From NCBI GenBank assembly GCA_030267965.1, contig BRYA01000493.1:2974-40060 (forward strand): a DNA stretch of 37,087 nucleotides, in the 5' to 3' direction. The stretch's first letter is position 1; every line of letters begins with the position of its first letter. The position numbers were made by a program, and so were the translations under genes. The notes beneath the pieces are model-generated. The model searched no databases. It was not told the origin of the DNA and saw nothing but the letters and a program-made list of their open reading frames with translations. Positions 6,001-37,087 of the stretch are shown piece after piece. This stretch comes from Triparma columacea. Its lineage: Eukaryota; Sar; Bolidophyceae; Parmales; Triparmaceae.

Positions 6001-8930
6001 GTGTCCTTGAAGTTGTTGTCGTCCATCAAGTCAACGTAGAGGTTGATCTCTCCATTCTCTTCGAGCTTAAAAAGGTCACTAACGGGAATGTCCAGCTGCT
6101 CGTTGGACCAGTCTGCAGTTCCCGAGCCATCCGAGGACTTGCACTTGACGTTCTTCGTCTTCTTTGACTTGCCCTTCTTTCCAACCTTTGCTCTTACGTA
6201 CGCAAAGAGCTTGCTATCCTTACCCTTGATGCCGGACCCCTCGACAACTTCAACTTGGACTACGCCTGTGCTCTCCATGACTCCAGGCGCCGCCAAGTAC
6301 TTGGCGGAATCATGGACATCGAACGGAGCCTTTGCGGGGGGGAATGCGGTCCCAGCCCCCCACTGCCTCTCTGCATCGGCGAAGACACTCGTGGACGGAC
6401 CGGGGCGATGAGGGAAGGGTGTGCCAGGCTGTCCCCAGAAGTACATTTGAATCTTGACGTCGCCGGCGGGGACCGTCCCCTTCTTGGTGGTGTGCACGAG
6501 CGACACCCAGGCCTCGGACTTGCCGAAGTGGATCACCTCGGATAGGTCGACCTCAGCAGATCCAATGAGATCGTCCGAGCCGACGTCCTCGTCGTAGCAG
6601 ACAATCTTCAGTGTAGTCGCGTCGACGTAATCGAACGAGAGCTCTGCAAGCCACTCGGGATCCAACGTAGAGTCGATCGTCTGCGTCTGCTTCGTAATGG
6701 ACGCCTTCTTAGCGCACTCCCCGGTTTGCTTACGGGCGTCCTTGATGATCTTCTTCACCTCCTTTGATTTTTGGTCAACGGGGGATGGCAGGGCCTTCAG
6801 CGCAGCAGGCTGGCACTGGTCGAGGCTGAGCATGATGTACGGATCAGGCTTCCCCCAGCTGTCTGGGTTGCGCAGCGATTTGGCCGAGTGCACGATAACG
6901 TTGAGCTGCCCGAAAGGCAAGAAGTCGCAGTTGCAGTTGAATGTCCCCGCGTCCTTGCCCGACTGTGTGAGCAGTGGAATTGACGAGTAGGGGGCGGAGT
7001 TCTCGGCCATCATGTTGAAAAGGTCGAGAGTGTGGGACGCGATGAGGGAGTCGGAACCGAAATCATCGTCGAATATATCAAGCTTGAAAGGCTTATTCCA
7101 GTTCTTCTCGTCGACGAAAATGAGCAGCTCCTCCCCCTTCCAGTCGGGCTTTGCGCCGGCGTTACTGAGGGTCTCTGTGCGCGCCCTCTCCTCTCCGATG
7201 GAGAGGTAGACGTAAGGGTCCTGCTTGTCTAGCATGTTCGAGGTGTCGTTCAGGTTCGTGCAGTCATTGCAAACGACTCTGACGACCCCGAACTTGGCGG
7301 CCCAGAACTCCACCTTGACCTTGATGGTCCCGCAGTCCTCCGTAGTTCCCGGTTTGTGCAGGTCGACTTCGAGGACCTTCGGGCCGTCGTTGTAGAACAT
7401 CGGCCTCTCCATCTCGTCGGTAACGTCGACCTTTGCGACGCACACGCACTTGTCGGACATCCAGTTGTCATCGTAGAGAGCAATCTCCATGAAGACGACC
7501 CCGTCCTTATTCTCCACGCTGGTGGGGTCCTGGACGTCGAAGTAAAGCTTCTCGTTGCTGAACTCCAGTTTACCGCCTGCGGCGGCGAGCGAAGCGAGTC
7601 GCAAGATGGATTGTTAATGGTTTCGTGAATGTGGAGTGAGACGGTCGTTGATCGTTTGGTGCTTTTTCTTTTGTTTCTTGTCGTTTTTGCACTTCTAATG
7701 GACAATGTACAACTAAAATCTCAGCACCCTGGGGCACCCACACTTTGGCATTTTTTATTTATCATTCTCACCTGACTTGGCCGCCTTGGTCGTCTTCGTC
7801 TTCTGAGCCTTTGCCTTCGGGTTTGCAATATTGGCATCTCCAAGCTTGACCTTAAGGTAAGCTTGGAGGCTGGAGTCTTTCCCTTTGACGCCTTGTGCGC
7901 TTACGACTGTAAGCGCGAGCCGACCTCGCTGGAGAGGCTGGAGGGGACGGGGGCGAGTGTAAGGCCTGTCAGTGTCGGGGACCACAAGTGCGACAGGTTC
8001 GGGCACTGCCACGGGCTTGGGTGCTGGGGCTGGTGCTGGGGCTGGGGCTGGTGCTGGTGCTGGGGCTGGCGCTTCAACTGGAGCCGGCTTGGGGAGTGCC
8101 TTGTTGGCGCTCAGCGCCGTCCTGAGGCTAGAGATCTTGTCTACTATGGATCCAATTTCATCAGTCATGCCTGCGACATCCGGGTAGCTCGAGGCCGGGA
8201 CCTCTGACATGCATATGCGGGCCTCCTTCTCTAGGTTCTCGAGCGTCTTGGCTAGGCCCTCAGGCCTCTTGTGGCCCTTGTCGAAGGGGGCGGGGGGGTT
8301 CTTCCCGTAGTGGCCGGCCGAGGCACGGGCGGCGAGAAAGATCTCGGCGGAGTCGAGGCCGTAGTAGGTCAGCATGTTCTCGCACGTCTTAACGACGGCC
8401 TGGTACATTTTGAGCTCCCTCTTTAGCGACTTGTTCCTGTGATGAGGGAGCGGAGTGGAGGGGATCGGGGTTAGGGAGGGCACCAGACACGCGGATGAAT
8501 GTCGGCGTTAGGGTTTACATGAAAATCGAACTCGCTTCGTTCCTTATTCTGCCTTCCCATCCTCTCCTCACCTGGAGGTAACCCTCTCTAACTGCTCATC
8601 CAAGTCAGCCACGTGTCCCGCCGCCGCCCTGAGCTCTTGCTTAAGAGATCCCTCGCTCTTATTCATACTTTCCTGCACGTTGAGGAGGTATTCCGTAATG
8701 AGCTGCTGGACCATCATGCCTCGGACAGCCAGGCTCTCGCCTGTTGAGGAACGGGGGGGACTCTCCTGAGCGTTGAGCTTGCAGAACGTTAGATTGTCGA
8801 GGAGAGACTGTAAACAGTCAAGGTCGATGTCACGTATTACCCTATCTACGTCCAGGGACTCCAACCTCGACCAGGGCATGGGACCCGACCTCTGCCGGAA
8901 GAAGAAGGGGGTGGAGATGGCTGCATCCAT
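66..8930 (-). CDS. DZIP1-N / twelve-C2-domain giant protein (2635 aa, 9 exons)
   Basis: Exons 8930-8572, 8436-7772, 7576-4946, 4850-3718, 3617-3153, 3083-2115, 1988-1480, 1367-889, 763-66. All junctions are GT-AG, all phases agree, and the total is 7908 nt. Residues about 8-170 match the Dzip-like N-terminal domain: W-S-R-L, V-D-R-V-I-R-D-I-D, L-T-F-C-K-L, Q-L-I-T-E-Y-L-L, then a coiled coil ending L-K-R-E-L-K. A Pro-Ala run near residues 240-260 leads into twelve C2 domains (about 289-2165) in four A-B-C triads. Types B and C keep DPY and acidic DDD/DED loops expected to bind Ca2+ and phospholipid. Type A lacks DPY, and C2-10 is degenerate. The tail is Gly-rich, then coiled coil, then Glu-rich (about 2440-2600), with a 15-nt DNA repeat near 283-327. 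No membrane segment is seen. DZIP1 proteins act at basal bodies, so a ciliary-base or membrane-docking role is inferred. The structure is firm; the function is not. Confidence 0.85.
4913..4937. repeat. (ATGC)n microsatellite in a C2-gene intron
   Basis: About six tandem CATG/ATGC tetramers lie inside intron 4945-4851 of the C2 gene, just downstream of its donor on the minus strand. The run is self-complementary. Confidence 0.9.
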
Positions 8931-10138: not shown

Positions 10139-11350
10139 TTGATCGTACGAGAACTGAGGGGAGGGGGGCGAGGTGAAGGAGTGGATGTGAGAATTTGATG
10201 TAGATCGATAGCAACTCAGTATAATACTCTCAAGTGAAGGTCTTCAGACATCTTTCCAACAAAGCATCTCCCACATCTCCAAGCCATTTCCAAGTCATCT
10301 CCAAGTCAAGACTCCGATTTGAGTCGGCAGCAGTGAGTCATGCATGAAGTTTTCCTTCTCCCTTGCGGGAATTCCTCCGTTGAGTTTCATCCTAATGAAT
10401 GTTTCACCCCTTTTAATGGTTTTCTCATGTCGATATGTCCATTGTCCTTCTTAATCCTTAGTCATATCCCCAAAAATACTTGACGACCAGCAGCTGCTGT
10501 CCTTAAACTGATGACAACCCTCTCTATACACGCTTTCCGACATTCTTACCTCCCACGATGCCATTTTAGTGCCTGTATATTCCTAATTATTCAACTATGA
10601 GACAGAGAATTGGGTTAGAATGAGGTGAAATTGACCTTGAAATGCCTTTGGAGAGACGAGAGCCGGGGTTCAAGGAGAAAAAGGAAAATATTTTGGGAGA
10701 GATGGGGGCATATAAGAGATTATAAAGCTTTTCGAGATAATCTATGTATACATGGAGGGTATGCGACTTAAAAAAAGGGAGAACATACCTTAATTCAGAT
10801 TGAATTGGGTGCTTTTTGTGGTTGAGGTTGTTAAGTTGAACCTCTCAATTTTCTCGATTTTTTCCACTTTCTCCACTTTAACCACTTAACTACTTAACGC
10901 TTATTTCAGGAATACAACCATTAAAATAAAGGGAAACTACCGACATCAGCGCGTCATAATATGACCAGATTTGGGATCATCTTCTTGCCTCATTCTTCAG
11001 CCCCACTTGTCTCGTGTTGATTCTGGATCTGAGAGGGAATTTTCAGAAGAATTTGAGAATTGTATTCCGTTTTAACCCCCGAAAATCAGGGTTAAGACCA
11101 TTTTCAACATATTCAATCAATCATTCACACTTGAACACTCATATTACCGACAAAAACAGCGCAAGAGGGGAACATTTTGGGTAGGCTTGAAAAGACCTCG
11201 ATACTCACTCTTCTTTGGGTAGCCTTTTCATCCCTTTTCCTGAACTCCTTCATACATACATACACACACACACACAAAGTACTCATCATTTCACGTAATT
11301 GGTAACAAGAAAGAGAAAACAAGGTGAGATTGAGGAAATATAATGGAGAT
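10139..11350. other. Gene-free AT-richer DNA before the array
   Basis: No long frames and no tRNA or rRNA signatures seen. A short direct repeat of the type ATCTCCAAG lies near 10270-10310. The stretch ends at ATGGAGAT|GTAAGC (donor at 11351), taken as the start of the intron-like array. Confidence 0.5.
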
Positions 11351-11415
11351 GTAAGCAGGGGGACATCTCGCAGACAAATCCAGAATAGGGTAAATATTGC
11401 GAAGGGTTGTTGCTT

Positions 11416-11623
11416 GTTTGTTCCAATGATGTAAACTCATTTGCAAGGCTGGGCAGGTGGACGTGGAACTCGTCAGCAACACTCTCGGGTGTTGCTCTTG
11501 AGAGTGTTGCTCTTGTTGTTCCAGCATCAAAGCTAAGTTCATTCATTGATCGTCCTGCTGGCATCCATCCTGAAATTCATTTAAGAAAACACCCCCTTCA
11601 AACGACCATACTGAGGAACAAAC
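11416..11623 (+). repeat. U0 core: same ends, different interior
   Basis: It starts GTTTGTTCC followed by AATGATGTAAAC and ends CAAACGACCATACTGAGG then AACAAAC, as in the other cores. The interior (about 11440-11597) is unrelated and has its own internal repeat around AGAGTGTTGCTCTTG. No type V1 or V2 window is recognisable. Confidence 0.7.
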
Positions 11624-11814
11624 ACACGACAACAACAAGCTGTTATTACTTCACACTGTACCTTCCTGTGTAAGAGTCACCTAACACATATCTTCAATCG
11701 CACTCGATATCCGCTATCCCCCCTCTCCTCCTACACACACGCACACATTCGACGATGCAGGTAAGGAAAGAGAGAAGGAGTGGTATCACAAAGTTGTTTG
11801 AGATGTTGAATGTT

Positions 11815-11947
11815 GTTTGTTCCGCTGATGTAAATATACCACACAATCTCTCATCATATGATATGCGACGTGCATTTCGGAGACACGCGCAATGATATAA
11901 CGCCAGTTAAGAAAACGGCTGCCAAACGACCATACTGAGGAACAAAC
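11815..11947 (+). repeat. U1 core (candidate structured RNA)
   Basis: Reference core. The ends GTTTGTTCC and GGAACAAAC can pair as a 9-bp stem. Inside follow GCTGATGTAAAT, window V1, TATGATATGCGACGTG, loop CATTTCGGAGA, CACGCGCAATGATATAAC, GCCAG, window V2, AAACGGCTGCC and CATACTGAGG. GCGACGTG and CACGCGC form a hairpin with one bulged A. TGATGT and CTGA next to the terminal stem resemble C and D boxes, but the C box is imperfect. V1 is CAATCTCTCATCA and V2 is TTAAGA. Confidence 0.6.
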
Positions 11948-12136
11948 ACATGACAACAACAAGCTGTAGTAGGTTGACACTGTATCTCCCTGTGTAAGAG
12001 TCACCTAACACCAATCTTCAATCACACTCGATATCCGTCGTTATTCTCCCCTCCTCGCACACACATTCGATGATGCAGGTAAGGAAAGAAGGAAGTGCGG
12101 AGTGGTATTGTAAAGTTGTTGGAGATGTTGAATGTT

Positions 12137-12268
12137 GTTTGTTCCGCTGATGTAAATATACCACAAGTCATATAAAATATGATATGCGACGTGCATTTCG
12201 GAGACACGCGCAATGATATAACGCCAGTATGCAAAATGGCTGCCAAACGACCATACTGAGGAACAAAC
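12137..12268 (+). repeat. U2 core
   Basis: Same plan as U1. V1 is AGTCATATAAAA and V2 is TATGCA. Confidence 0.6.
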
Positions 12269-12457
12269 ACATGACAACAACAAGCTGTAGTAGGTTGACA
12301 CTGTATCTCCCTGTGTAAGAGCGACCTAACACCAATCTTCAATCGCATTCGATATCCTTTGTCTTTCTCCCCTCCTTATACACACGTTCGATGATGCAGG
12401 TAAGGAAAGAAGGAAGGAAGGGTTAACATCGCAAAGTTGTTGGAGATGTTGAATGTT

Positions 12458-12593
12458 GTTTGTTCCGCTGATGTAAATATCCCATAAGAATGCCAAGGTT
12501 TATGATATGCGACGTGCATTTCGAAGACACGCGCAATGATATAACGCCAGTAACCCATAAATGGCTGCCAAATGACCATACTGAGGAACAAAC
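12458..12593 (+). repeat. U3 core, followed by a type II tail
   Basis: Same plan. V1 is AGAATGCCAAGGTT and V2 is TAACCCAT (8 nt). The downstream tail switches to type II (CCCTAACACAATAC then ATGGGACTCAG|GTAAG). Confidence 0.6.
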
Positions 12594-12744
12594 AACAACA
12601 AGAACTGTGACAAGGACGATAAGAGCGATGCATTACACAGCCCTAACACAATACACTTTCGCCCTTCGCAACGGCTGACACTATGGGACTCAGGTAAGAA
12701 GAGAACAGAGAAATGAGACGGAGAGGTCTTGTTTTGTTGTGGAT

Positions 12745-12863
12745 GTTCCGCTGATGTAAATATACCACAGCATATGATATGCGACGTGCATTTCGGAGAC
12801 ACGCGCAATGATATAACGCCAGTTCCTCAAACGGCTGCCAAACGACCACACTGAGGAACAAAC
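12745..12863 (+). repeat. U4 core with shortened 5' stem
   Basis: The 5' arm keeps only GTTCC. V1 is only GCA and V2 is TTCCTC. The stretch after the donor differs from type I units. Confidence 0.6.
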
Positions 12864-13052
12864 ACGTGACATCAACAAGCCGTAGTAGGTTGACACTGTA
12901 TCTCCCTGTGTAAGAGCGACCTAACACCAATCTTCAATCGCACACGATATCCGTCGTCATTCTCCCCTCCTCGCACACACATTCGATGACGCAGGTAAGG
13001 AAGGAAGGAAGTGCGGAGTGGTATTGTGAAGTCGTTGGAGATGTTGAATTTT

Positions 13053-13184
13053 GTTTGTTCCGCTGATGTAAATATACCACATGTGATGACGTATGATATG
13101 CGACGTGCATTTCGAAGACACGCGCAATGATTAAACGCCAGCAATCGATAAATGGCTGCCAAACGACCATACTGAGGAACAAAC
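13053..13184 (+). repeat. U5 core
   Basis: Same plan. V1 is TGTGATGACG and V2 is CAATCGAT (8 nt). Confidence 0.6.
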
Positions 13185-13368
13185 ACATGACAACTAGAAA
13201 GCCGGTTGACACAGTATCTCCCTGTGTAAGAGCGACCTAACACCAATCTTCAATCGCACTCGATATCCGTCGTCATTCTCCCCTCCTCGCACACACATTC
13301 GATGATGCAGGTAAGGAAGGAATGAAGTGCGGAGTGGTATTGTGAAGTCGTTTGAGATGTTGAATGTT

Positions 13369-13500
13369 GTTTGTTCCACTGATGTAAATATACCAAACTT
13401 CACTAAATATATGATATGCGACGTGCATTTCGGAGACACGCGCAATGATTTAACGCCAGTTTTGCAAACGGCTGCCAAACGACCATACTGAGGAACAAAC
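13369..13500 (+). repeat. U6 core
   Basis: Same plan, with ACTGATG replacing GCTGATG. V1 is AACTTCACTAAATA and V2 is TTTTGC. Confidence 0.6.
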
Positions 13501-13688
13501 ACATGAACAGCAACAAGCCGGTTGACACTGTACCTTTCTGTGTAAGAGTGACCTAACACCAATCTTCAATCGCACTCGATATCCGTCGTCATTCTCTCTT
13601 CCTCGCACACACATTCGATTATGCAGGTAAGGAAGGAAGGAAGGAAGTGCAGAGTGGTATCGCAAAGTTGTTTGAGATGTTGAATGTT

Positions 13689-13824
13689 GTTTGTTCCGCT
13701 GATGTAAATATACCAAGACCCAAACAATTTCTATGATATGCGACGTGCATTTCGGAGACACGCGCTATGATATAACGCCAGCAAGGCTTAAATGGCTGCC
13801 AAACGACCATACTGAGGAACAAAC
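13689..13824 (+). repeat. U7 core
   Basis: Same plan. V1 is AGACCCAAACAATTTC and V2 is CAAGGCTT (8 nt). Confidence 0.6.
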
Positions 13825-14022
13825 ACACGACAACAAGAAGCTGTAGTAGGTTAACACTGTACCTTCCTGTTTAAGAGTGACCTAACACCAATATTCAACC
13901 ACACTCAATATCCGACTTTATTCTCCCCTCCTCACACACACATTCGATGATGCAGGTAAGGAAAGAAGGAAGTGCGGAGTGGATTGTAAAGTTGTTGGAG
14001 ATGTTGAATGTTGTTTGTTCCG

Positions 14023-14146
14023 CTGATGTAAATAGCCCACACTGCTATCCAGGTTTATGATATGCGACGTGCATTTCGGAGACACGCGCAATGATTAAAC
14101 GCCAGTATTGTAAATGGCTGCCAAACGACCATACTGAGGAACAAAC
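14023..14146 (+). repeat. U8 core, followed by a type II tail
   Basis: Same plan. V1 is CACTGCTATCCAGGTT, whose last bases resemble V1 of U3, and V2 is TATTGT. The type II tail ends in TAG|GTAAG instead of CAG. Confidence 0.6.
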
Positions 14147-14297
14147 AACAACAAGAACTGTGACAAGGACTATAACAGCGACGCATTACACAGCCCTAAC
14201 ACAATACACTTTTGCCCTTCGCAACGGCTGGCATTATGGAACGTAGGTAAGATGAGAACAGGGAAAGGAGATGGAGAGGTTTTGTTTTGTTGTGGAC

Positions 14298-14426
14298 GTT
14301 CCGCTGATGTAAATAGCCCACAACTCAGATATGTGTATGATATGCGACGTGCATTTCGGAGACACGCGCAATGATATATCGCCAGGAGGTGAAATGGCTG
14401 CCAAACGACCATACTGAGGAACAAAC
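14298..14426 (+). repeat. U9 core with shortened 5' stem
   Basis: The 5' arm keeps GTTCC only, like U4. V1 is ACTCAGATATGTG and V2 is GAGGTG. Confidence 0.6.
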
Positions 14427-14610
14427 ACATGACAACAACAAGCCGTAGTAGACTGTACCATCCTTGTGTAAGAATGACCTAACACCAATCTTCAATCGCA
14501 CTCGATATCCGTCGTTATTCTCCCCTCCTCACACACACATTCAATGATGCAGGTAAGGAAGGAAGGAAGTGAGGAGTGGTATCGCAAAGTCGTTGGAGAT
14601 GTTGAATGTT

Positions 14611-14745
14611 GTTTGTTCCGCTGATGTAGATATCCCACAAGATCATTATTAATTTGATATGCGACGTGCATTTCGGAGACACGCGCAATGATATAACGCC
14701 AGCAAGACTCAAATGGCTGCCAAACGACCATACTGAGGAACAAAC
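14611..14745 (+). repeat. U10 core
   Basis: Same plan. V1 is AGATCATTATTAAT and V2 is CAAGACTC (8 nt). TTGATATG replaces ATGATATG after V1. Confidence 0.6.
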
Positions 14746-14938
14746 ACATGACAACAAGAAGCTGTTATTACTTCACACTGTACCTTCTGTCGAAGAGTCA
14801 CCTAACACCAATGTTCAACCGCACTCGATATTCGCTATCCCCCCTCTCCTCCCACACACACACACACATTCGACGATGCAGGTAAGGATGAAAGGAAGGA
14901 AGGAGTGGTATCGCAAAGTTGTTGAGATGTTGAATGTT

Positions 14939-15069
14939 GTTTGTTCCGCTGATGTAAATATACCAAAATTGAGTAAACTATGATATGCGACGTGCATTTC
15001 GGAGACACGCGCAATGATATAACGCCAGTTTCAAAAATGGCTGCCAAACGACTATACTGAGGAACAAAC
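14939..15069 (+). repeat. U11 core
   Basis: Same plan. V1 is AAATTGAGTAAAC and V2 is TTTCAA. Confidence 0.6.
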
Positions 15070-15251
15070 ACTGACAACAAGAAGCTGTAGTAGACTTTAC
15101 CTTCCTGTGTAAGAGTGACCTAACACCAATCTTCAATCACACTCGATATCCGTCGTTATTCTCCTCTCCTCGCACACACATTCGATGATGCAGGTAAGGA
15201 AGGAAGGAAGGAAGGAGTGGTATTGCAAAGTTGTTGGAGAAGTTGACTGTT

Positions 15252-15384
15252 GTTTGTTCCGCTGATGTAAATAGCCCACAAAAAAGAACGCCATATGATA
15301 TGCGACGTGCATTTCGGAGACACGCGCAATGATTTAACGCCAGTAGGCCAAATGGCTGCCAAACGACCATACTGAGGAACAAAC
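15252..15384 (+). repeat. U12 core
   Basis: Same plan. V1 is AAAAAGAACGCCA and V2 is TAGGCC. Confidence 0.6.
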
Positions 15385-15573
15385 ACATGACAACAACAAG
15401 ATGTAGTAGGTTGACAATGTATCTTCCTGTGTAAGAGTGACCTAACACCAATCTTCAATCGCACTCGATATCCGTCGTTATTCTCCCCTCCTCGCACACA
15501 CATTCGATGATGCAGGTAAGGAAGGAAGGAAGTGCAGAGTGGTATTGTAAAATTGTTTGAGACGTTGAATGTT

Positions 15574-15708
15574 GTTTGTTCCGCTGATGTAAATATACCA
15601 CAACGATATTTAATTTATGATATGCGACGTGCATTTCGGAGACACGCGCAATGATATAACGCCAGTAAGGGCAAAATGGCTGCCAAACGACCATACTGAG
15701 GAACAAAC
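15574..15708 (+). repeat. U13 core
   Basis: Same plan. V1 is ACGATATTTAATT and V2 is TAAGGGCA (8 nt). Confidence 0.6.
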
Positions 15709-15901
15709 ACATGACAACAACAAGCTGTAGTAGGTTGACATTTTACTTTCCTGTGTAAGAGTGACCTAACACCAATCTTCAATCGTTTTTGATATCCGTT
15801 GTTATTCTCCTCTCCTCGCACACACATTCGATGATGCAGGTAAGGAAGGAAGGAAGGAAGGAAGGAGTGGTATTGTAAAGTTGTTGGAGATGTTTAATGT
15901 T

Positions 15902-16034
15902 GTTTGTTCCGCTGATGTAAATATACCAAACGTCTGAATTTCCTATGATATGCGAAGTGCATTTCGGAGACACGCGCAATGATTAAACGCCAGTACTAGA
16001 AATGGCTGCCAAACGACCATACTGAGGACCAAAC
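15902..16034 (+). repeat. U14 core
   Basis: Same plan, with GGACCAAAC in the 3' arm and GCGAAGTG in the hairpin. V1 is AACGTCTGAATTTCC and V2 is TACTAG. Confidence 0.6.
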
Positions 16035-16223
16035 ACATGACAACAACAAGCTGTTATTACTTGACACTGTATCTCCCTGTGTAAGAGTGACCTAACACCC
16101 ATCTTCAATCGCACTCGATATCCGTCGTCATTCTGCCCCTCTTCGTACACACATTCGATGATGCAGGTAAGGAAGGAAGGAGAGAAGGAAAGGATCACAA
16201 AGTTGTTTGAGACATTGAATGTT

Positions 16224-16355
16224 GTTTGTTCCGCTGATGTAAATATACCACAAAGCTTACCTTCTATGATATGCGACGTGCATTTCGGAGACACGCGCAA
16301 TGATTAAACGCCAGTAACAGAAAGGGCTGCCAAACGACCATACTGAGGAACAAAA
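16224..16355 (+). repeat. U15 core (last unit)
   Basis: Same plan, but the 3' arm ends GGAACAAAA. V1 is AAGCTTACCTTC and V2 is TAACAG. Its type II tail has ATGGAACAG then TGCCTCAG and no following GTAAG. Confidence 0.6.
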
Positions 16356-16477
16356 ACAACAACAAGAACTGTGACAAGAACTTTGACAAGGACGATACAA
16401 CAACGACGCATTACACAGCCCTAACACAATGCACTTTCGTCCTTCGCAACGGCCGGCACTATGGAACAGTGCCTCAG

Positions 16478-16653
16478 ATACCTTTGACGCGCTTGGAATG
16501 ACAATGAATTGCACCGCGTTTTAATTAGCAAAATACCTTCGTTTGCAATTCATCAACCTCTTTTTCCTTGTCACCAGCTCGGTGGTGGCCATCCAAATCT
16601 TTCATCCAAGCCTTGCCCAGCTCATTTCTTCATTATTTTTAGTTGTTTTGAAT
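16478..16653 (+). other. Leader between the array and the APS reductase start codon
   Basis: It contains several short upstream ATGs and T-rich DNA. If the array is spliced as modelled, this stretch would be the exon joining the array to the APS reductase start. Otherwise it is the promoter and leader of that gene. No TATA box is clear. Confidence 0.4.
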
Positions 16654-18885
16654 ATGAAGCTTCATCTCGCTCTCGTAAGTAACAGTGTTGTGTTGGTAGC
16701 TTATCTTGTGTATATCAGTACAGTTGTTGTGTTAGATAGGTATATTGTGTGTTGTGTGGGTAATTATTTAGGGGTTTGTTGATTGGAGGTGTGTTTCCGC
16801 AATTTCCTCCTTTCCTTTCTTTATTCAATTAACGCATTATTTTGAAGTAGACATCGCATTTTCATCCACTACATCATATGACTGTTCTATATATACGTCA
16901 TAATATTCAATAACACGGACTATTCATTCACTTTATGTCTCCACACAAAATACATGTCGAGATGGCTATGTGTGTGGCTGTGTGTGAGGCTGTGTGAGGC
17001 TGTGTAGGCTGTATAAGGGTGTGTGTGGGTATATATACACACACGTCACACACACACACACTCATACACATCCACACACCCCACCCACATACACACACAC
17101 TAACAATACACAACTCCACAACAACCACAGGCCCTCCTCCCCTTCACCTCAGCCTTCCTCCCCCCCTCCCCCAGCCGCACCTTCCTCCCCTCCTCCCCCT
17201 CCTCCTCTCTCTTTGCTTCAGATGTAGCGTTTGACCAGGAGACTTACATCAAGGACTCCAAGGAGATGCGCATGAAACATCTGGAGGAACAGGCTATGTA
17301 CGCACTTAAGATCTCCTGCGAGAACTACGGGAACGCAGGTGAGGAGGGGAGAGAGAGGGGATTGAGGGAGGGGACTGAGGGAGGGACTGAGGGATGTAAT
17401 GAGGGATGTAATGAGGGATATAATGAGGGATATAATGAAAAATATACTCTGAGGGATACAATACGTAAAGGAGAATACAAACGAAGCAAGAATACATATA
17501 TATATATATAGCTTCCCGGTGATATGTATGATGCTGCCACACTACAACAACACCTAACCCCCCCCCCTCCCACTAACACAACCCTCTACGCGACTCGCTT
17601 CGCTCGTCGCCCCACTCTGCTCGTCGCCCCACTCCGCCTTAGTCTTCCCCAACGCAATGATCGCCGGTGACGTCGTAATCACCCACCTCCTCGGTCGTCT
17701 CGGTTACCTCCAGAACGGCAAGGCTAAGATCATGGTAGTCGACACCTTCCACCTCTTCGACGAGACCATGCCCTTCCTCGCTTCCCTAGAGGAGCACTAC
17801 GGCTTCAAGGCAGAGGTATTCTGCGCAGAGGGCGTTTCTGTAGGGGACAAGGCAGGGTACGACGCCAAGTATGGAGGTGAGAATGGACGAGAAAACGGAA
17901 ATGATAAGGAAAGGCATTGAGAAGAAGAGTAATTATCCTGAAGCATTCGGAGTGCTCATCATGTCATCATGCGGTCCGATCTGATATATATATCTCTGCG
18001 AATGTAATAATTCTCCTAACTCACTCGCTCCGCTCGTTCGCAGCCGACCTATGGAAGGAGGACATCGAGCAGTACGACAAGGTCTGCAAGGTGGAGCCTT
18101 TCCAAAGGGGTCTCAAGACCTTAGGCACCGACTGCATGATCAACGGCAGGACCAGGTGGCAGGGTTTCGAGCGCGCCTACATCGACCAGTTCGAGAACGC
18201 CCCCATCGGAGGCGGCCTAGCCAAGTGCAACCCCCTAGCGTACTGGACACTCGAGGACACATTCGATTATATCGCGAAGTACGATGTACCGCACCACCCA
18301 TTGCACGCGAGGGGGTACCCGAGCCACGGGGATGCTAAGGATACTATACCCATACCATCTATGGACGAGAGGAACCCCGACCCCCAGGAGGGGGAGTGTA
18401 AGTTTGTCGACGGGAAGATTGTCGGTGATAAGAAGTTCTGGTTCGACTACGCCTCAGAGCGTAAGGGCCGCTTCGTAGGCCTCGCTAACAAGGACGGGTC
18501 GACCAAGACAGAGTGCGGCATTCATGTTGCGGGGGCGGAGAAAACCTTCGACAGAGACCTGTGGGAAGGAGGAGAGGTTCAGGAACTCAGCGTTGATAAC
18601 GCTATTGAAACTACCAAGGCTAACCCAGGCGTCGTCGTTGTCTATGCTCCGTGGTGCCAGTTCTGTCAGGGCATGGAGGATTCCTACTCCTCCCTTGCTA
18701 AGGAGCTGAACGTACCCGTTTACAAGTTAAGGGGGGACGAGGAGAGGGAGTTTGTTCAAAGCAACTTCAACACTCAAAGCTTCCCTACTATTAATGTGGT
18801 GGATAAGGAGGGGAAGGTTAAGAAGTATGACAGCGAGAAAAGAGACGTAGAGAGCATGAAGGCTTTCGTTGAAGCTAACCTCTAA
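16654..18885 (+). CDS. APR: APS reductase-thioredoxin fusion, plastid-targeted, APR-B-like (434 aa)
   Basis: Exons 16654-16674, 17131-17338, 17643-17876 and 18044-18885; phases agree and the total is 1305 nt. It should reduce adenylyl sulfate to sulfite in plastid sulfate assimilation. The 7-codon first exon plus exon 2 give MKLHLALALLPFTSAF, a signal peptide with S-A|F cleavage, then a Ser/Pro-rich transit peptide. The reductase domain has I-A-G-D-V-V-I, V-D-T-F-H-L-F, Y-G-A-D-L-W-K, K-V-E-P, L-H-A-R-G-Y-P-S-H-G-D and the catalytic E-C-G-I-H (Cys about 312). The Cys-Cys pair and CXXC of [4Fe-4S] enzymes are absent, as in the iron-sulfur-free APR-B class. A C-terminal thioredoxin domain carries W-C-Q-F-C (Cys 359 and 362) and cis-Pro S-F-P-T. 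The usual G-R-R-x-S-Q substrate loop reads G-R-T-R-W-Q. A PAPS substrate cannot be excluded, but the fusion and ECGIH fit APR. Confidence 0.9.
16970..17105. repeat. (TG)n-(CA)n inverted microsatellite in APR intron 1
   Basis: A TG-rich arm (to about 17035) is followed by a CA-rich arm (to about 17105) around GTATATATAC. The arms are complementary and could form a long hairpin in intron 16675-17130, bringing its splice sites closer. Confidence 0.8.
17339..17642 (+). repeat. APR intron 2 with GAGGGATRTAAT minisatellite and hairpin motif
   Basis: This intron holds about five copies of a 12-nt GA-rich unit (17385-17440), a (TA)n run near 17505, and near 17587-17635 a copy and a half of the motif CGACTCGCTTCGCTCGTCGC found in other introns here. 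Confidence 0.7.
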
Positions 18886-19032: not shown

Positions 19033-19270
19033 TCAACTTATGCCAATATCGTGAATATAAGCAAGGTGCCTCCTGATTGCACCTTTATGCTTCGTTTTAA
19101 ATTCACACCCCTCTCTTCCGCATGTATGCCAGGATTACACCAATACCGTGAATACCAGCAAGGTATTCCTTCATGTGGCTCCCCTTCTTCGCCTTATATT
19201 CACACCCGTCATGCGCGCACGTATGGAAGGTTACGCCAATGGAGTGAATACCAGATAGGTGCTGCTTGAG
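19033..19270 (-). pseudogene. Frameshifted continuation of the zinc-finger array
   Basis: In the next frame the array resumes as L-K-Q-H-L-S-G-I-H, then a fifth finger (C-A-H-D-G-C) whose first zinc His is replaced by Tyr. A second extra base at about 19134 shifts the frame again before a sixth finger (C-G-R-E-G-C with R-R-H-L-A-Y-I-H) that ends at a TGA at 19033-19035. Both lesions are one added A on the plus strand. They could be real decay or sequencing errors. Confidence 0.6.
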
Positions 19271-19982
19271 AATCACCTCTCTGCAGAGTCTTGAACGCAC
19301 ACCCTTCTGCAGGGCATGTATGCCAGGTTACCCCGATATCGTGAATGTTAGCAAGGTGGGGCTTGATATTGCCTCTCATCTTCGTCTTGTATTCACACCC
19401 TTCTTGCGGGCATGTATGCCACGTTACGCCAACATCGTGAATATTAGCAAGGTGTTGCTTGGTGCTTTTTCTCTCCTTCGCCTTATATTCACACCCTTCT
19501 TGCGGGCATGTGTACCAGGTTACGCCAATATCGTGAATGTGAGCAAGGTGGATCTTGAGGTGCTCTTTCTCCTTCGCCTTATATTTGCACCCCCTTTGTT
19601 TGCACCAGTAAGGCCTCTCGTCTATCTCTTTCTCATCGTACTCATACAACCTCGCAGTAGCCTGTCCATTCACCCCCACCACTCCAACGCCTCTGCTGTT
19701 AGTCTTCCTCTCAGCAACAACCTTCAAATCCTCATCACATGGTTGGCAAACAAGAAGATCATGCCGTACCACGTCGTCCAGTTTAACAATATGTTCGCTA
19801 CTCGATCCTCCTACACCACCCCCTGTCGATCTACCCTTTCTGCCTCCTTGTTTTCCCAGAAAGGATACCTGGTCCGCAGATACAACTTCTTCTACCACGA
19901 ATTCATCTGATGTGGTGATACTAGGCGCAAATATGCTAATATTCGACCTCAGCTCCCAGCAAGGTACCGAAACAAACGACAT
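19209..19982 (-). CDS. C2H2 zinc-finger protein, frame broken near its end
   Basis: A single open frame of 257 codons. The first 125 residues are of unknown type. Four tandem C-x4-C-x12-H-x4-H fingers follow with a 32-residue period and the linker D-I-G-V-T-W-H-T, and the fourth finger is interrupted. Finger starts read C-K-Q-R-G-C, C-P-Q-E-G-C (twice) and C-P-A-E-G-C. An extra base at about 19271 shifts the frame inside finger four, so the last 15 or so residues of this frame are not finger sequence. The protein probably binds DNA or RNA; no partner is evident. It is transcribed away from the membrane-protein gene. Confidence 0.65.
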   Translation of the reverse strand: MSFVSVPCWELRSNISIFAPSITTSDEFVVEEVVSADQVSFLGKQGGRKGRSTGGGVGGSSSEHIVKLDDVVRHDLLVCQPCDEDLKVVAERKTNSRGVGVVGVNGQATARLYEYDEKEIDERPYWCKQRGCKYKAKEKEHLKIHLAHIHDIGVTWYTCPQEGCEYKAKERKSTKQHLANIHDVGVTWHTCPQEGCEYKTKMRGNIKPHLANIHDIGVTWHTCPAEGCAFKTLQRGDSQAAPIWYSLHWRNLPYVRA

Positions 19983-24595: not shown

Positions 24596-25720
24596 ATGAG
24601 TGAATTAGACTTTGCTTATGGTGATGACTATAGTGATGACGATGGTGATGAGTATGGTGATGACTATAGTGATGACGACGACAGTGATCACTATGAAGTC
24701 CCAGCTGGGTACTATCCCCTTCCCAAAACAGCAGTATACTCCGGAACAGTGGGCTTCGGAGGCAATCTTGAACTCATGGAAGTGACTTTTGCACAAGGAG
24801 TGACGTCGATTGGCGAGGGCGCCTTCTTCGAATGCTCCTCCCTCACGGCCATTACCATCCCAGATGGAGTGACGTCGATTGGTGGTGGGGCCTTCTGGGG
24901 ATGCTCCTCCCTCACGGCCATCACCATCCCAATTGGAGTGACAAAGATTGGCAAACACGCCTTCCAAGGTTGCTCCTCCCTCACTGCCATCGCCATCCCG
25001 GACGGAGTGAAGAAGATTGGCGAATGCGCCTTCAAAGACTGCTCCTCCCTCATGGCCATCACCATCCCGGACGGAGTGACAACGATTGGCAATTACGCCT
25101 TCTACCATTGCTCCTCCCTCACGGCCATCACCATCCCGGACGGAGTGACAAAGATTAGTGAGGGCGCCTTCTCTGGATGCTCGTCCCTGACGGCCATCAC
25201 CATCCCGGACGGAGTGACGATGATTGACGTTCTCGCCTTCTGGGGATGCTCCTCCTTCACAGCCATCACCATCCCGGACGGAGTGACGACGATTAGTAGC
25301 AGCGCCTTCAGAAGATGCTCCTCCCTCACGGCCATCACAATCCCAGACGGAGTGACGTCGATTGGCAATAATGCCTTCAGTGATTGCTCTGCCCTGACGA
25401 AGCTCATTCTATCTCCTGCTGTCTCCATCGGTGTAGACTGCTTCTTGAACTGCACCGCCCTTATCGCTGCCGCTGCTGATAAAAACATGCCGACTGTCTC
25501 GGACCTCCTCCATTACAGGTGGCACCGCAACGTCGCTGTGATTGAACGCGTCAACGCTCTGTTGTGCCTCAAGGGAACCTGGGATCACGTGGAGAATCAA
25601 CCCAGTAGACCAGATAGTCTGAAGAGGAAACGAACAGAAGTTGAAGCACCGCTTAAGGCAACTGAGACACGTCACAAGATCCCGAAAGTTTTGTGGAGAG
25701 TAATTCTGGAGTTTCTGTAA
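24596..25720 (+). CDS. BspA-type LRR_5 protein 1 (374 aa)
   Basis: Single exon. An acidic Asp/Tyr-rich N-terminus (residues 1-40) is followed by nine 23-residue repeats of the pattern V-T-x-I-G-x-x-A-F-x-x-C-S-S-L-T-A-I-T-I-P-D-G plus one degenerate repeat, the LRR_5 (BspA-like) family. Such repeats form a curved solenoid used in protein binding. There is no signal peptide, so it is probably cytoplasmic. The basic C-terminal tail ends I-P-K-V-L-W-R-V-I-L-E-F-L, resembling the start of an F-box; whether it works as one is a guess. It is a tandem duplicate of the next gene, with nearly identical N- and C-terminal parts. Confidence 0.9.
   Translation: MSELDFAYGDDYSDDDGDEYGDDYSDDDDSDHYEVPAGYYPLPKTAVYSGTVGFGGNLELMEVTFAQGVTSIGEGAFFECSSLTAITIPDGVTSIGGGAFWGCSSLTAITIPIGVTKIGKHAFQGCSSLTAIAIPDGVKKIGECAFKDCSSLMAITIPDGVTTIGNYAFYHCSSLTAITIPDGVTKISEGAFSGCSSLTAITIPDGVTMIDVLAFWGCSSFTAITIPDGVTTISSSAFRRCSSLTAITIPDGVTSIGNNAFSDCSALTKLILSPAVSIGVDCFLNCTALIAAAADKNMPTVSDLLHYRWHRNVAVIERVNALLCLKGTWDHVENQPSRPDSLKRKRTEVEAPLKATETRHKIPKVLWRVILEFL
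24799..25420 (+). repeat. 69-nt coding repeats of LRR gene 1
   Basis: About nine copies of a 69-nt unit with invariant TGCTCCTCCCTCACGGCCAT. High DNA identity between copies points to recent unit gain or gene conversion. LRR gene 2 has only four copies. Confidence 0.85.
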
Positions 25721-26009: not shown

Positions 26010-26732
26010 ATGAGTGAGTTTGACTTAGCTCATGGTGATGACTATAGTGATGACTACGACGACCCAGATGATTGGTATCCCAAAACAGCAGTATACTCCG
26101 GAACAGAGAGCTTCGCAGGCAATCATGAACTCACAGAAGTGACTTTTGCACAAGGAGTGACGTCAATTGGCCATGAAACCTTCTACGAATGCTCCTCCCT
26201 CACGGCCATCACCATTCCGGATGGAGTGACGACAATTGGCGTTCGCGCCTTCTACGGATGCTCCTCCCTCACGGCCATCACCATCCCAGATGGAGTAACA
26301 ACGATTGGCGGTGGCGCCTTCTGGAGATGCTCCTCCCTTACGGCAATCAGCATCCCGGACGGAGTGACGTCGATTGGCCATGCCACCTTCTGGGATTGCT
26401 CCGCTCTGACGAAACTCATTCTATCTCCTGCCGTTTCCATCGGTGGAAACTGCTTCGAAGACTGCACTGCCCTAATCGCTGCCGCTGCTGATAAAAACAT
26501 GCCGACTGTCTCGGACCTCCTCCATTACAGGTGGCACCGCAATATCGCTGTGATCGAACGCGTCAACGCTCTTCTGTGCCTCAAGGGAACCTGGGATCAC
26601 GCGGAGAATCAACCCAGTGGACCAGATAGTCTGAAGAGGAAACGAACAGAAGTTGAAGCCCCGCTAAAGGCAACTGAGACACGTGACAAGATCCCGAAAG
26701 TTTTGTGGAGAGTAATTCTGGAGTTTCTGTAA
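26010..26732 (+). CDS. BspA-type LRR_5 protein 2 (240 aa)
   Basis: Single exon and a tandem paralogue of LRR protein 1. It has the same acidic start (M-S-E-F-D-L-A-H-G-D-D-Y), four 23-residue LRR_5 repeats plus the degenerate fifth (V-S-I-G-G-N-C-F), and an almost identical tail from A-A-A-D-K-N-M-P to W-R-V-I-L-E-F-L. It differs mainly by the loss (or the other by gain) of five repeat units. The function is presumably protein binding. Confidence 0.9.
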   Translation: MSEFDLAHGDDYSDDYDDPDDWYPKTAVYSGTESFAGNHELTEVTFAQGVTSIGHETFYECSSLTAITIPDGVTTIGVRAFYGCSSLTAITIPDGVTTIGGGAFWRCSSLTAISIPDGVTSIGHATFWDCSALTKLILSPAVSIGGNCFEDCTALIAAAADKNMPTVSDLLHYRWHRNIAVIERVNALLCLKGTWDHAENQPSGPDSLKRKRTEVEAPLKATETRDKIPKVLWRVILEFL

Positions 26733-34381: not shown

Positions 34382-37087
34382 ATGAAAACCATGCTCTTCC
34401 TCATCCTGACCCTCTTACCAGGGATCGTTGTCCTTGGATTCCAACCTACGACCAAACAAGCATTGAAGTATGCCATCGATTCTCACCTTCGTGGATCTTC
34501 CGACAAGGGTCCCATTAACAATTGGGATACTTCATTGATCACCGACATGTCGTACCTGTTTTGTGGTTATAACACCGGAGATTGTGATTGTGGTAGTTTA
34601 TGTTCAGAGTACCAACAATTCAATGAGGATATCTCAGGATGGGATACGTCCCAGGTTACTTCTATGTCATACATGTTTTTCGCCGCCTACGACTTCAATC
34701 AGGATATCTCAGGATGGGATACTTCCCAGGTTACTTCTATGTCATCCATGTTTAGGAGCGCCTTCAACTTCAATCAGGATATCTCAGGATGGGGTACTTC
34801 CCAGGTTACTTCTATGATAGACATGTTTTACAAAGCCTCCAACTTCAATCAGGATATCTCAGGATGGAACGTATGTGCATGTACTAATTTCGACTATATG
34901 TTTGGAAACTCAGGATATTCAGGATCCTCCTTATCCACAGCAGGGTGCACGGGCTGCCCTTCCGGTAGGTACACGGAGGGAACTGGAGAATATGTCCAAG
35001 GAGGAAACCCATGCCAAGGTACGTTTGTTCCGTATGTGTGTTTGGGGGGTCTGTCCAAGTTTCTTTCTTCTCGAGAAGCGGGGTTTCTTCGATTTTGGTC
35101 CGTCCAAGGGGGGGTCCGAGGGGGGTCCGAGGGGGGTCCGAGGGGGGTCCGAGGGGTCAAGGGGGTGGAAAGAAACAAGGCACACACACACAGAAATCTA
35201 ACACCAAAGAAAAAACGCCAAAAACCACAGGATGTGAAGCAGGCAAATACTCATCCATAACTGCAGCTACAACATGTCAAGGTAAGTTTGTTTCTTCTTG
35301 AGAACCGGAGTTTCCTCGATTTAGGGAGGGGGGTCCGAGGGGGGTCCGAGGGGGGTCCGAGGGGGGTCCGAGGGGGGTCCGAGGGGGGTCCGAGGGGGGT
35401 CCGAGGGGTCAAGAGGGTGGGAGAAAAACGAGTCACATGCCAAAGACAAAATATCTAACACAAGAAAAAACGCGAAAAACCACAGGATGTGAAGCCGGCA
35501 AATACTCGGCCACAACTGCAGCTACGACATGTCAAGGTAAGTTTGATTCTTCTCGAGAACCGGAGGTTCTTTGATTTTTGGAGGGGGGTCGTCCAAGGGG
35601 GGTCCGAGGGGGGTCGAGGGGTCAAGGGGGTGGAAAGAAAACAAGCCACACGCCAAAGACAAAATATCTAACATGAGAAAAATGTGAAAAACCACAGGAT
35701 GCGAAGCAGGCAAATACTCGTCCACAACTGCAGCTACGTCAGAATCGACATGTCAAGGTAAGTTTGTTTCTTTTTGAGAACCGGGGGTTCTTCGATTTTC
35801 GGAGGGGGTCCATCTAAGGGGTCCGAGGGGTCAAGGGGGTGGAAAGAAAACAAGCCACACACCCAAGACAAAATATCTAACATGAGAAAAAATGTGAAAA
35901 ACCACAGGATGCGAAGCAGGCAAATACTCGTCCACAACTGCAGCTACGTCAGAATCGACATGTCAAGGTAAGTTTGTTTCTTCTTGAGAACCGGGGGTTC
36001 TTCGATTTTCGGAGGGAGGTCCGTCCAAGGGGGGCTCTGAGGGGGGGGTCCGAGGGGTCAAGGGGATGGAAAAAAACGAGGCACACACACACAAAATATC
36101 TAACACAAGAAAAACACCAAAACCACAGGATGCGAAGCCGGCAAATACTCGTCCACAACTGCAGCAACGTCAGAATCGACATGTCAAGGTAAGTTTGTTT
36201 TTTCTTGAGAACCGGAGTTTCCTCGATTTAGGGAGGGGGGTCCGAGGGGGGTCCGAGGGGGTCTGAGGGGGGTCTGAGGGGTCAAGGGGCTAGAAAAAAA
36301 ACGAGTCATGCACACACAAAATATCTAACACAAGAAAAAACAAACCACAGGATGCGAAGCAGGCAAATACTCGTCCACAACTGCAGCTACGTCATGTCAA
36401 GGTAAGTTCATTTCTTCTTGAGAACCGGAGATTCTTCGACTTTCGGAGGGGGGTCCGAGGGGAGAAGGGGGTGAAATAAAAACGAGTCACACGCTAGACA
36501 AAATAACTAACACAAGAAAATCACCAAAACCACAGAATGCGAAGTTGGCAAGTACTCTGGGAGTGCATCATCAACATGCGTCGAAGAATGTCCTGTGGGA
36601 ACCTACGTTTTTGCGTCAACCTCAGCATGCAACGAATGCCCAGCAGGAACCTATTCTGGAGTAGAGGGAGCCACTGCTGCCACAACATGTCAAGGTGGGT
36701 TTGTTTCTTTTGGAGAACCCGAATTTGTTTTGGTTTGTTCCTCTGTCAAACCCCTAAAATGACCCTCTGCATTTCCTCGACTCACATGCTTCATTCCCCT
36801 CTTTCACCACAGCATGCCCCTTGAGAACTTTCAACCCCTCAGCAGCTGCCACAAATGCCACAGCCTGCTTACAATGCGACCCCGGCAGCGCCCCCCTAGT
36901 TGCTGAAGCTGCCACATCGTGCCCTCAGTGTCCAGACGGTTTGATCTCTGAGAGCGGCGTGAATTGTGTTCTTGGCACTGCCTGTGCTCCGGATGAGTAC
37001 GAAGAAGGGGGAGATTGCAAGGCTTGCAACAACTTTATCAGCGGCTTGATAATTGCCGGCTCTTTCCTCTCCTTCGTTGCAGTTACC
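34382..37087 (+). CDS. Secreted or membrane DUF285 / cysteine-rich repeat protein, 3' end outside window
   Basis: Exons 34382-35018, 35231-35281, 35486-35536, 35698-35757, 35908-35967, 36129-36188, 36351-36401, 36536-36694 and 36813 onward; all internal junctions are phase 1. The signal peptide is [22 protein letters not shown]285 (BspA-like) repeats follow, with [17 protein letters not shown] as the core of a 25-residue unit. Then come cysteine-rich motifs of the G-C-x-A-G-K-Y-S and C-P-A-G-T-Y-S type, as in GCC2/GCC3 or TNFR-like ectodomains. The last exon has more Cys pairs and enters a hydrophobic segment ([10 protein letters not shown]) at the window edge. A cell-surface receptor or adhesion protein is inferred. 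Six near-identical mini-exons are notable. Confidence 0.85.
35108..36285 (+). repeat. GGGGGGTCCGA minisatellite blocks in introns
   Basis: Blocks at about 35108-35160, 35325-35410, 35580-35625, 35808-35835, 36010-36060 and 36235-36285. Copy number varies from one to about eight between otherwise homologous introns. G-runs of six may favour G-quadruplex RNA. Confidence 0.9.
35231..36401 (+). repeat. Six tandemly duplicated mini-exons with their introns
   Basis: Exons of 51, 51, 60, 60, 60 and 51 nt each encode about [17 protein letters not shown]. Introns between them are also homologous: GTAAGTTTG then TTCTTGAGAACCGG at the start, and ACAAAATATCTAACA then AAAACCACAG at the end. The duplication unit is one exon plus one intron, about 155-255 nt. 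Every unit is phase 1-1, so gain or loss never breaks the frame. Confidence 0.95.

Follow-up and report, generated by a model that had tools for sequence, protein, structure and literature searches.

Triparma columacea is a tiny silica-plated marine alga of the Parmales, the sister group of the diatoms. Analysis of a 37,087-nucleotide stretch of its genome (contig BRYA01000493.1, positions 2,974 to 40,060; hereafter the window) revealed 16 tandem intron-like units, each of 291–410 nucleotides (nt), that fill positions 11351–16469 upstream of an APS reductase gene (Table 1). The units start with GTAAG and end with AG, and AG/GTAAG (the slash marks the splice junction) was found at all 15 unit junctions, whereas dinucleotide shuffles of the stretch averaged 0.19. 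One copy of CCTAACAC lies near the 3′ end of every unit (16 occurrences), and the interval from the last CTAACAC to the junction was free of AG in 15 of 15 cases, with a gap of 42 nt at two junctions and 65–71 nt at the other 13, close to the 50–75 nt given in a first-pass annotation of this DNA. That annotation had also described the 15 junctions and a last unit with an acceptor and no donor, and both descriptions held: the final acceptor is at 16469 without an adjoining donor, and an alternative acceptor, CTCAG, lies approximately 8 nt further on. Two junction types alternate along the array: the 3′ ends of units 4, 9 and 16 and the 5′ ends of units 5 and 10 differ in sequence from those of the other units. 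The proposal that each intron holds one core RNA is consistent with the sequence; 15 of the 16 units carry members of the same family (124–150 bits with the core model), and unit 1 carries a divergent core that scored 21 bits.

The start of the array was less clear. The first-pass annotation had placed the first donor at GAT/GTAAGC (GT at 11351), which is present, but a second candidate, AAG/GTGAGATTGAGG (GT at 11324), is the one kept in all three arrays that share the promoter and first exon, namely L012 on the minus strand, L014 and L017 (seven loci compared; L-numbers denote genomic loci holding cores). In L014 an insertion has moved the GTAAGC alternative out of place, and its L017 counterpart is GTAGGC. 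We regard the first donor as uncertain and as probably AAG/GTGAGA, with GT at 11324. The 5′ region of the window array aligned with those of L012 (minus strand), L014 and L017 at 330/373, 300/361 and 430/494 identical bases, respectively, the alignments extending into the first intron; because these arrays and the window array have homologous promoters and first exons, they appear to form a small family of dedicated host genes.

At the other end, the exon that follows the array would read a 20-codon frame when joined to ATGGAGAT (by eye), and the product of the downstream gene (P0001) is 99% identical to T. columacea TrCOL_g4748 over the 282 residues searched. Position, together with analogy to other arrays, supports the earlier suggestion that the array may serve as 5′ leader to the APS reductase gene; coding-looking sequence also follows the arrays of L013, L014, L017, L021 and L026 (by eye).

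Table 1. Features of the array and the adjoining gene. The first position of each of units 2–16 is the first base of GT at a unit junction; N12 and N5 are the variable windows of the core RNA.
Feature	Position	Strand	Basis
Promoter region and first exon of the array host gene	11042..11323	+	Homologous to 5′ regions of L012(−), L014, L017
Unit 1, alternative first donor GAT/GTAAGC at 11351; divergent C/D-like RNA 11420–11619	11351..11760	+	Model score 21 bits; one homologue in L017
Intron unit 2; core RNA 11819–11943	11761..12078	+	Junctions and model match
Intron unit 3; core RNA 12141–12264	12079..12399	+	Junctions and model match
Intron unit 4; core RNA 12462–12589; second 3′-end type	12400..12693	+	Junctions and model match
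Intron unit 5; core RNA 12745–12859, first variable window shortened; second 5′-end type	12694..12994	+	Junctions and model match
Intron unit 6; core RNA 13057–13180	12995..13310	+	Junctions and model match
Intron unit 7; core RNA 13373–13496	13311..13626	+	Junctions and model match
Intron unit 8; core RNA 13693–13820	13627..13955	+	Junctions and model match
Intron unit 9; core RNA 14017–14142; second 3′-end type	13956..14246	+	Junctions and model match
Intron unit 10; core RNA 14298–14422; second 5′-end type	14247..14552	+	Junctions and model match
Intron unit 11; core RNA 14615–14741	14553..14881	+	Junctions and model match
Intron unit 12; core RNA 14943–15065	14882..15193	+	Junctions and model match
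Intron unit 13; core RNA 15256–15380	15194..15515	+	Junctions and model match
Intron unit 14; core RNA 15578–15704	15516..15839	+	Junctions and model match
N12 example, unit 14, directly 5′ of TATGA (box D′ place)	15604..15615	+	Alignment of 163 copies
N5 example, unit 14, in GCC..GGC hairpin loop	15669..15673	+	Alignment of 163 copies and consensus folding
Intron unit 15; core RNA 15906–16030	15840..16166	+	Junctions and model match
Intron unit 16; core RNA 16228–16351; final acceptor ACAG/TGCC, no donor adjoining	16167..16469	+	Sequence
Exon that follows the array; probable 5′ leader of APS reductase	16470..16653	+	Inference
APS/PAPS reductase-thioredoxin gene; has its own ATG, 16654 (by eye)	16654..18885	+	P0001 matches PAPS/APS reductase families

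Alignment of 40 cores gave the consensus GUUCC-NNN-GA[U/A]G ... CCCACAA-N12-UAUGAUAUGCGACGUGCAUUUCGGAGACACGCGCAAUGAUU.AACGCCAGCAA-N5-AAAUGGCUGCCAAACGACCAUACUGA-GGAAC, an RNA of approximately 125 nt in which two variable windows, N12 and N5, are set in a scaffold about 95% alike between copies (gaps ignored; some of the most similar pairs are heavily gapped). The boxes of box C/D RNAs have the consensus RUGAUGA (C) and CUGA (D), and their kink-turn is a stem with a three-base bulge, GA opposite the GA of CUGA, and a G-C pair. Such RNAs accumulate in stable form bound to Snu13, Nop56/58 and fibrillarin, and their guides lie immediately 5′ of box D′ or D. CTGA was present in 178 of 181 copies. 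Of these 178, 174 have a terminal stem of at least five pairs 3 nt before GA[T/A]G, as do 10 of 178 control sites (other CTGA with GA[T/A]G at a like distance). From this pattern, the GUUCC/GGAAC ends are the predicted kink-turn of box C/D RNAs. When 159 cores were folded to a consensus, the structure consisted of the terminal stem, an apical hairpin (GCG.CGUGC/CACGCGC) and, presenting N5, a small GCC/GGC hairpin; N12 was unpaired. Near-invariant AUGA and AUGAU, degenerate relative to CUGA and RUGAUGA, flank the apical hairpin in the places of boxes D′ and C′, which would therefore put N12 at the D′ guide position. We interpret the cores as putative box C/D-type RNAs.

Two variants of this anatomy were observed. 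One, a longer RNA that shares the C/D ends of the core and has a different interior, is present in the window (11420–11619) and in L017 (about 2500–2710), in the first introns of two arrays. In L012, positions 6617–6728 of the minus strand hold a chimera of the 5′ half of the core and first-intron sequence of the arrays.

A 40-base piece of the core had 337 matches in the genome (193 and 144 by strand, at most three mismatches) and its reversed control had none, indicating a family of at least 337 copies in the assembly searched (37.85 Mb, 789 contigs), which is probably partial compared with the published assembly. The latter comprises 43.0 Mb in 1,858 scaffolds and, according to the genome paper, its gene models rest on protein hints only (PMC10328945). 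The box C/D-type core, the size of its family and the randomness of its two windows are the larger surprise of this locus, beyond what the first-pass annotation contained.

For further analysis, 181 copies from 45 sources, including the window, were examined. They include 24 runs of at least two cores, counting the window array; the longest have 22 and 17 cores (on one contig), followed by 15 in both the window and L021. Among the 125 spacers, defined as the sequences separating adjacent cores that lie less than 450 nt from each other, AG/GTAAG was present in 123 (0.9 expected), CAG/GTAAAG in one more and a true exon in one, and CTAAC lay upstream of the junction in 123. The recurrence of AG/GTAAG in 23 further runs is consistent with the original proposal that the array was built for stepwise splicing. 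The spacers fall into three types, with identities of 0.82–0.87 within and 0.58–0.64 between types (per longer length; 0.51–0.56 for shuffled sequence), and all three keep the AG/GTAAG junction. The two halves matched in 72 of the 75 spacers typed on both sides of the junction, the other 50 of the 125 being untyped on at least one side. No AG lay between branch point and junction in 93 of 123 spacers, compared with 23.9 expected from shuffles. CTAAY..AG was oriented in the sense direction in 135 of 144 array copies and antisense in three; for copies without a neighbouring core in their stretch the numbers were 19 of 28 and eight, where isolated means that no other core lies within 450 nt and where L029–L048 were covered for approximately 350 nt on each side, L032, L038 and L048 continuing into arrays.

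Window statistics were calculated from the 163 of 181 copies that were fully parsed; the 18 unparsed copies looked intact by eye apart from three: a copy whose window is shortened, a copy truncated where its stretch ends and a rearranged copy. Information was 0.00–0.18 bit per position in N12 (163 copies) and 0.03–0.09 bit in N5, which sits between near-invariant A's (131 copies of the common length), compared with 0.95–2.0 bits in the columns beside the windows and 1.7–1.85 bit in the TAT adjoining N12. N12 was 12 nt long in 107 of 163 copies and 11–13 nt in 150, contained 40% G+C compared with 50% in the window, and was distinct in 161 of the 163. Similarity of the flanks did not predict similarity of N12: across 1,399 pairs (limited to right flanks of 80% identity or more and to 16 gap letters or fewer), N12 identity was 0.23–0.28 in every flank-identity bin from 0.72 to 1.00 (0.26 expected), and it was 0.247 for the 33 pairs with flanks at least 94% identical. 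No pair among 16,290 shared 10 or 11 of the 12 bases and two shared all 12; both of these also share N5, and in one of them (L021) the flanks clearly differ and the right-hand spacer is a different one. Left out were 8 of the 181 copies in the flank comparison, four in the stem-extension test described below and four of the 163 in the consensus folding. The simplest reading is that a given pair of windows, hereafter an address, is kept as is and that different copies carry unrelated addresses. Selection on addresses with homogenised flanks and replacement of whole addresses would both give this pattern, and the family offers a clean case in which windows change completely while flanks stay alike.

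The strongest of 180 N12/N5 column pairs tested for mutual information had a z of 4.0, and base pairing was rejected as its source, with Watson-Crick combinations in 25 of 131 copies versus 30.6 expected. N5 was complementary to its own, the next and the previous N12 in 2, 2 and 1 cases, as in shuffles, and N12–N12 pairing between copies was the same as in column shuffles. Eight-letter words shared in the same sense among N12s numbered 15 versus 4–9, in part owing to the two duplicated pairs.

Arrays and single copies also lie inside coding genes. At L009, four cores are arrayed between a pair of exons with matches to RlmN, one before the array (RlmN_N positions 18–52, E 8.8e-7) and one after it (TIGR00048 positions 74–168, E 2.7e-29). 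Because the reading frame joins across this array, its removal is best explained by recursive splicing that leaves no scar. In L005, a single copy constitutes a whole family intron with splice sites exactly at the exon boundary, and the frame of the flanking exons joins; its upstream exon piece had no Pfam or NCBIfam family match, the gene being OMA1-like by eye only. The genes whose introns hold other isolated copies are diverse, and most of these copies are in sense orientation. The window also provides an internal control at 35231–36401, where six repeated exons of 51 or 60 nt (multiples of three) read C-E-A-G-K-Y-S in one frame. The introns of these repeats (CEAGKYS..CQ) use GTAAGTT and CTAACA, and intron 1 of the APS reductase gene likewise uses GTAAG and CTAAC. 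The splice signals of the array are the species' own, and the array differs from 35231–36401 by having no exon. Zero-length exons would be harmless to the host message, which would explain growth of arrays inside coding genes.

Reading from DNA alone, we consider it likely that the locus is a recursively spliced zero-exon intron array that yields box C/D-type RNAs with a bipartite address. The body of the host gene would consist of complete spliceosomal introns, head to tail, with zero-length exons. The spliceosome would remove these introns in turn, each ligation making a new 5′ splice site (exon...AG/GTAAG), until removal ends at the final acceptor at 16469 and leaves an mRNA without a scar. 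As its anatomy suggests, each excised intron would be debranched and trimmed to a box C/D-type RNA of about 125 nt shielded by kink-turn proteins. On the constant scaffold, N12 (5′ of D′) and N5 (in the hairpin loop) would form a bipartite address that pairs with many RNAs other than ribosomal RNA (rRNA), the probable action being placement of 2′-O-methyl groups or another action on mRNAs. With somewhat less than even confidence, we extend this proposal to a genome-encoded library of several hundred C/D guides with a two-part address, made in bulk from exonless introns and aimed at many non-rRNA transcripts, in which each new copy acquires an entirely new address, either through strong selection or through an undescribed rewriting mechanism.

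Several results weigh against these interpretations. The AG-free rule, which the first-pass annotation had stated for each junction and which held throughout the window array, was weaker elsewhere: in one spacer type, 25 of 37 spacers have an earlier AG between branch point and junction and only 12 are free of it. Boxes C, C′ and D′ are 1–2 bases off the consensus, covariation in the terminal stem is scarce (changes on both sides in two cases of 178), and extension of the stem into the flanks was not above permutation (p 0.84, 29 copies). The cores matched no Rfam family, with no gathering-level match in the window and three weak matches (E 0.72–4) within 11300–16500. The second window was less clean in the 31 copies in which it is shorter (0.03–0.47 bit).

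The searches for targets likewise gave no support. Pairing of N12 with rRNA over at least 10 nt was found in 7 of 181 copies compared with 8, 1, 3 and 4 in shuffles and 5 in a sense control, using yeast 18S and 3,162 nt of 25S as a proxy that may differ from the rRNA of the alga; 5.8S rRNA was not found in the searched T. columacea genome. In 230 kb of locus DNA, 11-mers of N12 had 45 matches outside cores versus 36, 30 and 24 in shuffles, not clearly above chance. Two N12 words searched genome-wide had 2 and 4 extra places compared with 4 and 38 for reversed-pattern controls, and the N5 complement was present within 60 nt at none of these six places (both strands). No target therefore supports the guide reading, since the rRNA, N12-word and N5-complement searches were not above chance. 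Orphan C/D RNAs, for their part, lack an antisense match to rRNA or small nuclear RNA (snRNA).

Finally, splicing the first donor directly to the last acceptor, in one step, would yield the same mRNA as stepwise splicing. This identity of end product favours the strongest competing explanation, that the run is spliced out whole, as a single intron, or that an endonuclease frees some of the cores, the inner sites being relics of tandem duplication. We nevertheless think it unlikely, as 123 of 125 junctions retain both donor and acceptor, and so do all three of the dissimilar spacer types.

A rather less likely alternative is that the units are introner-like mobile introns, spread by transposon-like copying with GTTCC/GGAAC as terminal inverted repeats, and that tandem copies are by-products whose RNA has no guide role. 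Introners, in which whole introns are copied into new exon sites, often bear inverted repeats and target-site duplications. Hundreds of dispersed copies and the precise intron in L005 fit this explanation, and some introner families are described as having inverted repeats (PMC9860276). It is at odds with the sense bias of 135 versus 3, with ends that fit a kink-turn, and with the observation that in about 14 of the 28 isolated copies the similarity is confined to the core, the surrounding introns being unrelated (by eye). In addition, a model built from 40 family sequences, when searched against 204 kb (the window and L009–L028), gave 156 matches of which 153 scored 124–151 bits and three at most 34 bits, with no half-decayed copy among them; these loci were chosen for holding cores, and decayed copies elsewhere would escape. 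A transposon also offers no reason for two sharply bounded random windows. No exact match to a 25-mer of the core was found in viral or prokaryote contigs.

Intronic C/D small nucleolar RNAs (snoRNAs) usually guide modification of rRNA or snRNA, and the position of N12 adjoining the D′ place is guide-like, both of which speak for one C/D scaffold multiplied so that each copy 2′-O-methylates a different ribosomal site. The constant ten bases before box D (CGACCATACT; e.g. window 15688–15697) are moreover complementary over 10 nt to positions 1113–1122 of yeast 18S, a match that may be chance (about 6%, an estimate). Ordinary rRNA or snRNA guides are nonetheless improbable, given that N12 showed no enrichment for pairing with the yeast proxy in 181 copies and that 161 of 163 N12s are distinct, whereas a small target set would make windows recur. 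Least probable of all is that N12 and N5 are neutral spacers drifting in a scaffold kept by selection or gene conversion: the nearly flat base composition and the absence of a target in the searches made would fit, but N12 identity is random in the 33 pairs with flanks at least 94% identical, no pair stops at 10 or 11 shared bases whereas two share 12, and the length of the first window is held close to 12 nt.

Comparison with published systems placed the array among known arrangements while setting its scale apart. RNA-seq of a Candida snoRNA cluster revealed classical, nested and recursive splicing with an exon size of zero, and in Debaryomyces a zero-size exon lies between snR41 and snR70 (PMC5033589). 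In these yeast clusters (Candida cluster II, snR57-55-61; Debaryomyces cluster III, snR41-snR70), as in Triparma, C/D snoRNAs occupy adjacent introns with a zero exon and splicing regenerates the site; the cases described in the accessible parts of that report are single junctions between different snoRNAs, whereas Triparma has 15 in a row, and runs of 22 and 17, from one family with random windows (PMC5033589). The first-pass annotation called a head-to-tail run of sixteen unfamiliar, which was right for that number in series, but the principle itself has precedents. Human SNHG14 carries 29 SNORD116 and 48 SNORD115 copies in tandem introns, one C/D-like RNA each and without known targets; exons occur within these animal clusters and, in the portions of the source available, the copies are called non-identical versions with no mention of hypervariable windows, in contrast to the exonless arrays and two random windows of Triparma (PMC11608373). 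Ratchet points share the zero-length exon and a junction consensus of (y)nncag/gtaagt, but are described, in the text available, for large animal introns, whereas the Triparma junctions recur every ~320 nt with an RNA of their own per segment (PMC2773006). The Class I RNAs of Dictyostelium are likewise numerous short protist RNAs with a terminal stem, a constant motif and a highly variable remainder; they differ in being 42–65 nt long, mainly cytoplasmic and preceded by an upstream DUSE, and the available sections mention neither a box C/D nor an intron origin (PMC7919456). Introners resemble the family in spreading introns through genes, the accessible text mentioning no RNA scaffold or random windows, and the words Triparma, snoRNA and tandem are absent from the main text of that paper (PMC9860276). 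The main text of the T. columacea genome paper contains none of intron, splic or snoRNA (PMC10328945), and nothing on such arrays in Triparma was found in the openly licensed literature searched. As far as these searches reach, the kind is known, from tandem C/D introns and single zero-length exons, and that literature offers no precedent for the serial scale or for a family with two-window addresses.

If our interpretation is true, a unicellular alga stores guides in the manner of a library, in which a single scaffold carries hundreds of addresses and the host gene consists only of introns, and removes these introns without trace even between coding exons. The arrays would then be a natural system for testing serial recursive splicing, and so large a set of C/D guides would open a statistical attack on the partners of orphan C/D RNAs such as SNORD115 and SNORD116.

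Further observations concern the rest of the window and genome. In-frame tandem repeats of 69 bases occur at 24797–25368 and 26154–26402 of the window, in leucine-rich proteins (BspA/LRR_5-like by eye). A family search of the genome gave a single U6 snRNA match, L049 (G000:C272:8399-8507). A 96-base tandem repeat at 19038–19592 of the window falls partly within a minus-strand reading frame that is zinc-finger-like by eye.

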